From positions 1 to 48,013 of the forward strand of contig JAJKHS010000129.1 of NCBI GenBank assembly GCA_021154885.1: a stretch of DNA of 48,013 bases. Direction: 5' to 3'. Every line of letters begins with the position of its first letter. The first letter of the stretch is position 1. The notes under the pieces are model-generated. The model was given only the letters and a program-made list of their open reading frames with translations, did no database searches and was not told where the DNA came from. Origin of the DNA: Thermoanaerobaculum sp. (GTDB lineage Bacteria > Acidobacteriota > Thermoanaerobaculia > Multivoradales > UBA5704). Below are positions 34,172 through 36,680 of the stretch, piece after piece. The position numbers and the translations under genes are program-made.

Positions 34172-34248
34172 GGCTTCGGTCCGGCCGCGAGGCGACCGGA
34201 GAGGAATCATACCTCACGGCAATAGGAACCAGGTGATCCAGATCTCTC

Positions 34249-34418
34249 TGAGAGGGTGTCTGAAAGTCTCGACAGCGGCACCGCGCCCGGGATTGAAATC
34301 CCGGGCTACCGACGGTGGTCCCTGCGGGACCGCAGTTTTCGTTCTCTTTGGTCCCGCAGGGACCACCGTCGGTAGCCCGGGTCTTCAGCCCCGGGCCGCC
34401 TTTCCAGACACCCTCTAA
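34249..34418. mobile_element. MITE-like element with 32-bp perfect inner inverted repeat
   Basis: The ends GAGAGGGTGTCTGAAAG (left) and CTTTCCAGACACCCTC (right) are terminal inverted repeats. Inside, 34300-34331 is perfectly complementary to 34350-34381 (CCCGGGCTACC...). There is no coding sequence. It is related by its ends to 13451-13568. Confidence 0.7.
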
Positions 34419-34487
34419 GAGAAAAGATCGCGAAGTTGGACCGGAGACGACTCCTGGAAGAGGCAGCCAAGCTGGATCCTGAGGAGG

Positions 34488-35461
34488 GTCGCAATCCCAC
34501 CGTACTGCTCAGGGCACTTCCGAGGAATAGCAGAACCATCCATCGGTGCCAACGCACCACTGTCGCAATCCCACCGTACTGCTCAGGGCAATTCCGAGGA
34601 TGTGCACCGTACATACCACGGTGCACATATCCCAACCCCAAAGGTCGCAATCCCACCGTACTGCTCAGGGCAATTCCGAGACACCGATCCAGAGCGCGGG
34701 GAGATCCTTCTCATCATGTACACAGGTCGCAATCCCACCGTACTGCTCAGGGCAATTCCGAGCCACACGAAAGCAATCTTGAAATCACCCAATAAGCAGT
34801 TTCTCTGTCGCAATCCCACCGTACTGCTCAGGGCAATTCCGAGAGATTGTAACGAGGAGATCGCAACGTTTCGGATCGCGTGTTTGTCGCAATCCCACCG
34901 TACTGCTCAGGGCAATTCCGAGATGGTAAAACTCACTCGAGACAACGGCGGACAATTCAGTCGCAATCCCACCGTACTGCTCAGGGCAATTCCGAGGTTG
35001 ACATGGGGGATGGAAAGACCTTCGTTACTGATCACGGGTCGCAATCCCACCGTACTGCTCAGGGCAATTCCGAGAAGAGCCGGAAGAAGCGAATCAGGAA
35101 AGTGAAGCTCCGACTTGTCGCAATCCCACCGTACTGCTCAGGGCAATTCCGAGCAAGACCGTTCTCAAGGTCCTGGGAAAGCTTATTACGCTTATGTCGC
35201 AATCCCACCGTACTGCTCAGGGCAATTCCGAGACAGATGTACTTTGGTGCTAATGCATGCACCGAAAGGAGAGTCGCAATCCCACCGTACTGCTCAGGGC
35301 AATTCCGAGGGATACCAGTTCTGCCCGATCTTGGAGGGCTTCTGCTCGTCGCAATCCCACCGTACTGCTCAGGGCAATTCCGAGAAAGCACGATTACCGG
35401 ATAGGCGGTGAGGCCCATCTGGAAGTCGCAATCCCACCGTACTGCTCAGGGCAATTCCGAG
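34488..35461 (-). CRISPR. CRISPR array: 13 repeats of 37 bp, 12 spacers of 37-45 bp
   Basis: The 37-bp repeat (plus-strand start GTCGCAATCCCACCG, end GGCAATTCCGAG) occurs at 34488, 34562, 34644, 34726, 34807, 34886, 34960, 35038, 35117, 35196, 35273, 35348 and 35425. Twelve copies are identical; the first has one substitution (CAC for CAA). That degenerate copy marks the old, leader-distal end, so the leader is on the right and transcription runs on the minus strand. There the repeat ends GGGATTGCGAC, reminiscent of the ATTGAAAC-type 5' handle of type I/III systems. The long, variable spacers also fit those types. No cas gene lies within the window. Confidence 0.97.
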
Positions 35462-35757
35462 GGACCCACTTCCAACCCTTTGAATCCATGTGGGTTAAGT
35501 GGCCTGTTTTTCCAACCCCCTCGGAACGACGACGTTTTTTCTCTTCGGCGCTTCGTCCCGGCCTGCTTCAAGATCAGGTAACTCTTTGAAGAGACTCGGG
35601 TTAGCGTCCGATTTCCAACCGATGTGCCAAAATGGCGAATCGGCGCTGGCATGACTCTTGCCAAACAAGGCGTTTCAGTTGTCAAGGAACGGGACTTCTC
35701 GTGCGTCCATCTTAAAAGACTCTGACCGGCAAGGCAAGCCCGCTCCCAAGGCGCGGC
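35462..35757 (-). promoter_or_regulatory. Presumed CRISPR leader region
   Basis: About 300 bases without a gene, less GC-rich than the chromosome and with T/A tracts (CCTGTTTTTCC, GACGTTTTTTCTC). It adjoins the conserved end of the array, as expected for a leader carrying the array promoter. Confidence 0.55.
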
Positions 35758-36345
35758 CTACACGTACCCGACGCTCACCAGCCGCCGCGCGCTCCTGTCA
35801 TAGCCCGTGCGGTCCGCGGCCTCGAAGCCCAGGGAGTCGGCGACCCGGTTGATGACGTTGAACAGCGCGCAGACGTGGACGGCGCTCTTGATCTCCTCGT
35901 CCGAGAGGCCCGCCGCCCGCAACGGCGCGGCGTCGTCCGGCCCCACCTCCGCCGGCCGCAGGGTCAGCTTCTCCAGGAATCCGAGCATCGCCCGCAGCTT
36001 CTCGGAGATGGGCGCCGTGCGGTAGTCCGCCAGCACCGCCTGAATCAGCGCTTCACCTTCTTCACCGTGGGCCATCGACGCGACCGCGCCGTGCTGGTCC
36101 CGTCAGAAGACGCATTCATTGCAGCGCGATGTGAAGGAGGCGAAGAGCTCCCGTTCCCAGACGCTCCACGGCGACGGCCCGCGCAGGACCGCCTGGATCC
36201 ACCGGCCGTAAGCCCGGCCGAAGATCTCCGGCCGGTACAGGAGGGTGCGGACGACGTCCGGCAGCCGGGTCCTGATCTTCCAGCCCATGATGGGAAAGAG
36301 CAGCCGCTTGATCCCCTGCCCGCGCCGCACCTTCTCCAGTCTCAT
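35758..36345 (-). CDS. AhpD-like peroxidase-family selenoprotein (CxxU)
   Basis: A 195-residue protein, provided the in-frame TGA at 36103-36105 is read as selenocysteine U81. The sequence around it, ERELFASFTSRCNECVF-U-RDQHGA, is the alkylhydroperoxidase D / carboxymuconolactone decarboxylase motif CxxC-x3-H with the second Cys replaced: C78, U81, H85. Downstream, the same frame continues the fold (MLGFLEKLTLRPAEV, LSDEEIKSAVHVCALFNVINRVADSLGFE). The fold reduces peroxides through the CxxC/U pair. A UGA in place of a catalytic Cys with no frame disruption argues for Sec, and fdhA shows the organism probably decodes UGA. A SECIS-like hairpin follows. Start overlaps the previous gene (ATGA). 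Alternative: nonsense mutation. Confidence 0.8.
36078..36105 (-). promoter_or_regulatory. UGA Sec codon and candidate SECIS in the AhpD-like gene
   Basis: Ten bases after the TGA, ACGGCGCGGUCGCGU (36092 to 36078) can fold as ACG[G]CG / CGCGU with a CGGU loop and a bulged G. This is weaker than the fdhA element but at a similar distance. Confidence 0.45.
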
Positions 36346-36680
36346 CGCGCACCTCCTCGCAGGACGGCGAGACCGCCCTCCAGCCGGGCGAGCCCGGCGC
36401 CCACCGCGGCGCTGACCGCGACCTCGAAGATCTCGTCCTCGGAGCAGCCGGCCCGGAGCAGGGCCGCGACGTCCTCGTCGGTGATCCGGTAGGCGTGGAG
36501 GGCGATGGCGTCGACGTACTCCCGGAGCTTCTCGGGGATCTCCCCCGTCCCGGCCGCCGGCCCGCCGCTCAGCGCCGCCGCGCGCGCCGCCACGGCCTGC
36601 CGCAGCGCGGGGTCCGTCAACCCCTGGCGGCTCAGCACGGCCCGGCGCTGGTTCTCCGCCAGCTCGTCATAGCGTTCCAT
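36342..36680 (-). CDS. AhpD-fold companion protein without catalytic Cys motif
   Basis: 112 residues, all helical, resembling one domain of the carboxymuconolactone decarboxylase / AhpD superfamily (ALHAYRITDEDVAALLRAG, DEIFEVAVSAAVGAGLARLE). It lacks a CxxC motif, so it is probably a structural or regulatory partner of the selenoprotein rather than a peroxidase. GGGAGG is five bases before the ATG. Its stop overlaps the start of the selenoprotein gene, so translation is coupled. Confidence 0.75.
   Translation of the reverse strand: MERYDELAENQRRAVLSRQGLTDPALRQAVAARAAALSGGPAAGTGEIPEKLREYVDAIALHAYRITDEDVAALLRAGCSEDEIFEVAVSAAVGAGLARLEGGLAVLRGGAR

Follow-up and report, generated by a model that had tools for sequence, protein, structure and literature searches.

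An AhpD-like selenoprotein gene overlapped by a half-domain companion gene in a Thermoanaerobaculum genome

An AhpD-like gene with an in-frame TGA codon

In a draft genome of Thermoanaerobaculum sp. a TGA codon interrupts an AhpD-like gene exactly where a catalytic cysteine would be expected, and the start of the same gene is overlapped by a second, smaller gene. This raised the question whether the TGA is decoded as selenocysteine (Sec) and what the overlapping gene might contribute. The window, i.e. the whole stretch of 48,013 nucleotides that was analysed, is contig C129 (JAJKHS010000129.1) of an 8.2-Mb genome in 161 contigs with a completeness of 96.6%. On its minus strand, positions 36345 to 35758 form a single reading of 195 aa from an ATG at 36345 to a stop codon TAG at 35760-35758, with the in-frame TGA at 36103-36105 (minus strand) read as Sec (U81). 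The coordinates and the frame open on both sides of the TGA had been reported in a first-pass annotation of the DNA, which left the strand unstated. As had been foreseen there, gene finding splits the gene: translation with table 11 gave two ORFs (36345-36103 and 36075-35758), and standard annotation thereby hides a selenoprotein by breaking its gene in two.

The TGA takes the place of the second Cys in the AhpD motif, in agreement with the first-pass annotation (C78-V-F-U81-R-D-Q-H85). In the AhpD protein PA0269 the motif residues are Glu36, Cys48, Tyr50, Cys51 and His55 (PMC3141380). Residues E66, C78, F80, U81 and H85 of the protein encoded here match these in spacing, giving the motif E-x11-C-x-[YFH]-C-x3-H with Sec in place of Cys; Sec occupies the second-Cys site of its E-x11-C-x-[YF]-C-x3-H form. 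By this spacing the minus-strand codons at 36148-36150 and 36091-36093 encode the proton-relay residues Glu66 and His85 (motif from PMC3141380), and the codon at 36112-36114, on the same strand, encodes Cys78, the first Cys of CxxU. E66, C78, position 81 and H85 were invariant in all 11 species of the clade described below, and F80 was nearly so.

With C substituted for U, the protein passed the family model TIGR01926 with 108.8 bits (curated cut-off 81.8). Against the Pfam family CMD (PF02627, gathering score 23) it scored just under the threshold with 21.8 bits, and the companion protein over it with 25.0 bits. The AF2 model of the enzyme (pLDDT 86.8) showed its best Foldseek match to the AhpD structure 6k40 of Deinococcus radiodurans (E 3e-9; sequence E 1.3e-26). 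This protein, DR1765, and the other best PDB matches (2oyo, 3c1l, 2pfx and 2prr) have the same fold and catalytic spacing but carry Cys where the enzyme described here has Sec. We know of no companion for an AhpD of the DR1765 type. A D. radiodurans AhpD mutant is sensitive to H2O2 and is poorly complemented by CxxC variants, and the AhpD of other bacteria takes electrons from lipoyl proteins (PMC8945050). Based on the family chemistry, the catalytic spacing and the D. radiodurans data, the enzyme is most likely a thiol/selenol peroxidase or disulfide reductase. By analogy with the family, Sec81, activated by E66 and H85, would most likely attack a hydroperoxide or a disulfide, Cys78 would then resolve Sec81 by forming a selenenylsulfide, which a dithiol donor of the lipoyl protein or thioredoxin type would re-reduce.

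Selenium machinery and conservation of the TGA codon

The genome encoded the complete Sec machinery, with all hits above the respective family cut-offs: selA (451.8 bits), selB (308.2 bits, or 351.1 for the joined frame), selC, i.e. the tRNA-Sec (67.3 bits, anticodon tca according to ARAGORN), and a selD containing one in-frame TGA (331.6 bits). ARAGORN found no tRNA within the window. In the selD gene (L082, contig C8, 12122-13054) the in-frame TGA was followed by a predicted hairpin, and SelD of this genome is probably itself a selenoprotein. Two more AhpD-like genes of the same genome carried a TGA at the second Cys (L085, contig C136, 56081-56545; L086, contig C53, 66600-67034), the latter within an open frame of 730 aa that may represent a fusion. 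AhpD-type genes with in-frame TGA recur in this Acidobacteriota order, with three in this genome, and Sec use in the order may therefore be under-annotated. Genome-wide recoding of TGA was set aside, since the companion gene ends in TGA and the Sec machinery is complete.

We found the TGA at the Sec codon in 11 out of 11 distinct species of a companion-bearing clade spread over Acidobacteriota, Chloroflexota and Myxococcota, with Dictyobacter kobayashii as an isolate among them. A scan of 84,980 species genomes yielded eight of these loci, all eight with TGA. When 72 genomes of the order were searched with read-through of stops, five clade members with one TGA each were obtained, four of them from genomes already among the eight, and a companion search of 396 phylum genomes added two further species. 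The order search did not return TGA in every match, and its weaker matches included the Cys forms L031, L033 and L035. The nearest relatives in these searches were apparently Acidobacteriota of the Thermoanaerobaculia kind, and the protein stretches from the same-genus genomes G069 and G070 were those also obtained from L018 and L019. Alignment with homologues, which the first-pass annotation had proposed as a check, showed either Cys or Sec at the U81 site. Both forms occurred outside the companion-bearing clade, as read from 30 loci fetched out of a longer set of matches, and among the matches examined inside it none was a Cys form. In a maximum-likelihood tree of 79 sequences the companion-bearing ones made up one side of a branch with support of 100/96 that was present in 100% of 200 bootstrap trees. 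This tree omitted repeats (L101, L102, L103, L091 and L129), the contig-edge sequence L094, and sequences without the motif pattern (L033, L035, L092, L093, L110, L130 and part of L113).

Compared with two same-genus sequences, dN/dS was 0.159/0.505 and 0.176/0.499 before the TGA, and 0.150/0.472 and 0.151/0.610 after it (hairpin codons excluded). Judged by these rates, the TGA is followed by sequence that evolves like a coding region, under purifying selection similar to that on the stretch before. The locus thus has one mark of a selenoprotein gene, a conserved in-frame UGA at a site where homologues have Cys.

A SECIS hairpin downstream of the UGA

The candidate SECIS hairpin (CGGCGC-GGUC-GCGUCG, 36076-36091, minus strand) has a 6-bp stem, an apical GGUC loop at 36082-36085 and a free energy of -8.1 kcal/mol. 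Counting from the UGA it occupies nt 15-30, with the loop at nt 21-24, and it falls within the codons for H85-G-A-V-A-S90. The published model for bacterial SECIS elements specifies a loop of 3-9 nt, a stem of 4-16 bp, a G in the first two loop positions, a distance of 16-37 nt from the UGA and an MFE <= -7.5 (PMC13188914). All values of the window's hairpin lie within this model (6 bp, GGUC, UGA-to-loop distance 17 nt, -8.1 kcal/mol), and the minimal hairpin of Dictyobacter (5 bp, -6.9 kcal/mol) misses the -7.5 limit. The GGUC loop is similar to that of the SECIS in formate dehydrogenase of E. coli. No Rfam family matched the window at gathering scores. Against shuffled sequences the hairpin had a z of -2.3, with 11 of 200 shuffles equally stable.

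Across the 11 clade species 65 of 66 pair cells were formed, one pair was changed on both sides in two species, and the covariation of 0.109 was matched by 12 of 500 shuffles. A larger set of 19 Sec genes comprised the 11 clade members and eight other Sec genes with an H-A-A-type peptide. In this set 111 of 114 pair cells were formed, 12 cells carried changes on both sides, against a mean of 4.5 in shuffles, and the covariation reached 0.273 vs 0.087 in shuffles; none of 500 shuffles attained either value, and slid registers of the hairpin scored <= 0.096. Two cruder measures showed no excess in these 19 genes, namely the number of pairs in which both sides had changed (2 vs 1.2 in shuffles; 111 of 500 as high) and further pair types (3 vs 3.1; 443 of 500 as high). 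The eight additional Sec genes of the wider family retained five or all six of the hairpin pairs. A change from C-G to U-A at the fourth pair was present in L104 and L109 and probably arose twice, because these two are not sisters in the tree.

The complete 6-bp helix was found in 16 of the 19 Sec genes vs none of 26 Cys homologues with like peptides (Mann-Whitney p 1.4e-5, on 8 vs 21 distinct 18-mers from related sequences); since the 19 Sec genes hold only eight distinct 18-mers, this test covers few independent events. The Cys homologues were chosen by peptide pattern, and several were tandem genes within a single genome. The motif pattern hit the first Cys in L031 and its copies, L096 and L097, and these sequences stood outside the hairpin test. 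Also left out were L110, whose HTAG peptide is missed by the pattern, and the Sec paralogues of the other main branch (27 in the tree, plus L094), because their hairpin, if any, would lie in another register. Most Sec paralogues of the order carry an HGEDLR-type peptide where the hairpin lies in the HGAVAS codons here. Third-base identity was 0.88 in the five hairpin codons vs 0.39 in 51 other columns, and no window of the gene was higher. In the hairpin test with synonymous codons shuffled, 0 of 2000 shuffles scored as high (in a set that includes the three duplicates L101-L103). A SECIS element, for which the first-pass annotation had suggested a search, is therefore present after the UGA, is conserved at synonymous sites and shows paired changes. 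For models of bacterial SECIS elements, these matched homologues, Sec or Cys and either carrying or lacking the full helix, also offer a natural test set. UGA 81 is, on comparative sequence evidence, decoded as Sec, and the decoding would be carried out by SelB and tRNA-Sec under direction of the hairpin.

The companion gene

Directly upstream of the selenoprotein gene, a companion gene (36342-36680, minus strand) encodes a protein of 112 aa, a half-AhpD domain that lacks the catalytic CxxC/U hairpin and with it the catalytic half. Its stop codon and the start codon of the selenoprotein gene overlap in an ATGA at 36342-36345 (minus strand), and an AGGAGG sequence resembling a Shine-Dalgarno site for the selenoprotein gene lies within the companion's end (36352-36357, minus strand, assigned from sequence context). 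The same arrangement, with stop and start overlapping, was found in 11 of 11 species (8 ATGA, 2 TAATG, 1 longer), and a GGAG stretch preceded the selenoprotein start in 8 of 11 (judged by eye). The two genes hence form a distinct operon, as first proposed. Of the translational coupling proposed along with it, the overlap was borne out, and the overlap suggests the coupling itself. The genes flanking the pair differed between species (by eye, from ORF translations only), so the neighbourhood gave no clue to a substrate.

The selenoprotein observation is confirmed with one correction, as the companion had been called Cys-less. A single Cys occurs in the companions of 4 of 11 species, including C79 in the window, and none is conserved in the aligned parts, which for five of the 11 (L022, L024, L025, L057 and L058) were counted rather than whole ORFs. 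In all other respects the reading of the locus in the first-pass annotation is supported, the alignment, the SECIS and the machinery all being favourable.

The companion is homologous to the enzyme's own C-terminal half, after the UGA (hhalign E 1e-8), and its HMM also matched halves of other AhpD proteins (best 1.6e-10). L74 and A92 were invariant and A77, G78, D82, R99 and others nearly so, and dN/dS (0.30/0.58 and 0.28/0.48) was looser than that of the enzyme. AF2 gave a confident five-helix model (pLDDT 90.7), for which AhpD structures ranked first in Foldseek with a probability of 1.0 and weak E-values (best 0.016).

Matches to the companion profile were found in 3 of 396 phylum genomes (best 11 first-look candidates per genome scored) and in 5 of 148 class genomes (best 32 per genome), two partly overlapping sets; matches inside AhpD genes were left uncounted (G399 in the phylum set, and G038 and G342, both weak, in the class set). 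Among these best 11 and best 32 candidates per genome of the 396 phylum and 148 class genomes no companion was found apart from a Sec gene, and diverged companions could be missed because of the limited number scored. In the fetched companion-less Sec and Cys loci no match of the companion HMM exceeded 40 bits vs 82 to 163 bits for companions, and those weaker matches that could be placed fell in the C-terminal halves of AhpD genes. A search of 72,556 plasmid records gave no match to the companion, and viral contigs gave no confirmed one. With the enzyme profile two relatives with 33% identity were found on viral contigs.

Alternative explanations and a proposed two-gene selenoenzyme

For the TGA itself, two readings other than Sec have to be weighed. 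Seven of the eight relatives from the species-genome scan are metagenome-assembled genomes and the genome studied here is a draft of 161 contigs, so that the TGA could be a sequencing or assembly error in place of TGC or TGT, or the mark of a decaying gene. The same codon is, however, TGA in 11 of 11 species including the isolate, the hairpin is tied to the TGA, and purifying selection acts on both sides of it, and a read error or pseudogene is so improbable on these grounds that we regard it as ruled out. The UGA might also be a true or leaky regulatory stop, with the function lying either in the 80-aa product or in a switch between a short and a long form that depends on selenium. UGA decoding in bacteria competes with the release factor, table 11 gives an 80-aa ORF that ends at the TGA, and this short form would be without Sec and His85. 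Against such a stop stand the catalytic His located after the TGA and the codons there, which are selected like those before it, and we consider a functional stop very unlikely. Sec decoding, together with a half-domain companion, makes up our favoured explanation: a two-gene selenoenzyme unit of a SECIS-directed Sec81 AhpD-like enzyme and its companion, which we regard as probable.

What the companion does in such a unit is less certain. Via the overlapping stop and start, the two proteins would be translated as a coupled pair, and the companion might act as a catalytically empty subunit in a trimer or hexamer of the AhpD type, shaping or shielding the selenium site. We give its assembly with the selenoprotein an even chance. 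The main rival is that the companion is a separate protein of the CMD fold, for example a regulator, or a leader that opens the selenoprotein start and is kept only for translational coupling. The stop/start overlap in 11 of 11 species, the GGAG stretch in 8 of 11 (by eye) and the faster evolution of the companion relative to the enzyme would all fit, but a mere leader would not need a conserved amino-acid sequence with L74 and A92 invariant, the companion shows homology to the domain of its own partner, and AhpD domains form oligomers (PMC3141380); a leader or separate function thus appears possible but rather unlikely. Alternatively, the pair could be NF041238 (AhpD_rel_CFYUT), the fused selenoprotein with two domains, in split form. 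In 10 of 11 of these proteins an N-terminal part without CxxC stands beside a C-terminal CxxU domain (the exception, L062, has CDHC), the C-terminal domains of NF041238 and of the enzyme match (E 5.5e-11), and the NF041238 profile matches the enzyme with 35.8 bits and, weakly, the companion with 13.1 bits. These scores are nevertheless far below the family cut-off of 175 bits, the genome itself had no NF041238 match at E <= 1e-15, and the companion, which does match its partner's C-terminal half at E 1e-8, compared with the N-terminal domain of NF041238 only at an E of 0.093 and a probability of 0.6% (from shallow alignments). An origin of the pair by splitting is accordingly improbable, and fused NF041238 as its ancestor was unsupported by the profile comparison, in which the N-domain alignment was shallow.

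Returning to assembly of the companion with the enzyme, the companion stood beside a Sec enzyme in 11 of 11 species and none was found beside a Cys enzyme. We therefore tentatively suggest, at less than even odds, an obligate heteromer in which a duplicated half-domain, stripped of its catalytic hairpin, is a subunit kept only with a selenium active site. If true, the empty half-subunit would be a selenium-specific adaptation, e.g. by protecting a selenenic or selenenylsulfide intermediate or by docking the reductant. With Dictyobacter kobayashii as a named isolate carrier, this two-gene system can be used to test if a non-catalytic subunit evolved for a selenium site.

Relation to known AhpD-like proteins

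Selenoproteins of the AhpD-like CxxU type have been described in the literature since 2005 (PMC1088965, PMC2398784, PMC1794560, PMC9312934, PMC13188914), and, as stated in the first-pass annotation, they were reported from metagenomic surveys, including those of the Sargasso Sea in 2005 and GOS in 2008 (PMC1088965, PMC2398784). TIGR01926 is named for CxxU selenoproteins in a 2026 review (PMC13188914). With the AhpD-like selenoproteins of TIGR01926 / COG2128 the present gene shares the family, Sec at the second Cys and a SECIS just after the UGA (PMC1088965, PMC2398784, PMC13188914), but it belongs to a distinct clade with a coupled half-domain companion. The one AhpD operon named in that literature combines Prx-like and AhpD-like selenoproteins, and no mention of a half-domain companion was found in the AhpD selenoprotein papers, mostly those available without subscription. 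The selenoprotein itself is of a known kind; what is new is its coupled half-domain partner.

NF041238 (AhpD-related CFYUT, 'hypothetical protein 1') likewise pairs an extra N-terminal part with a CxxU domain, but in one chain of 357 aa where the locus described here has two chains (35.8 and 13.1 bits vs the cut-off of 175); no homology between its N-terminal domain and the companion was detected in the profile comparison, which used a shallow alignment. Fused NF041238 genes (L062-L072) were present over the cut-off in 11 of 247 Acidobacteriota genomes, ten of them in one genus, and all had one TGA. Tandem Cys CMD genes on a Spirosoma plasmid and in several Acidobacteriota genomes are similar in that two CMD/AhpD genes neighbour each other, but both genes are full length, those tested were without the full SECIS helix, and no half-domain companion was found with them. 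On the Spirosoma plasmid (L100, 1504-2670) the first tandem gene retained just one of the two motif Cys. This locus and further same-strand neighbours of the CMD/AhpD Cys type (L112-L115, L117-L121, L123 and L125) could possibly represent other heteromeric pairs.

Two further plasmid loci concern related enzymes. Plasmid 2 of the Gemmatimonadota species Gemmatirosa kalamazoonensis (L098, 1501-1971) encoded a Sec-form AhpD gene with the same SECIS-type helix, beside which no companion was found. On a plasmid of Streptomyces finlayi (L096, 1067-1977) a Cys 'peroxidase-related enzyme' gene overlapped a small DUF6187 gene in a parallel arrangement of two genes, and this was rejected as a companion with a Cys enzyme as no relation of the small gene to the companion was detected (hhalign E 0.62).

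Within the window, a CRISPR-like array lies just downstream of the selenoprotein gene (34482-35470; 13 repeats with a shared core of ~37 nt at a spacing of 74-82 nt). Beside the array are large inverted repeats (34245-34422), with 47-nt arms that are 91% complementary and nested in 21-nt arms.
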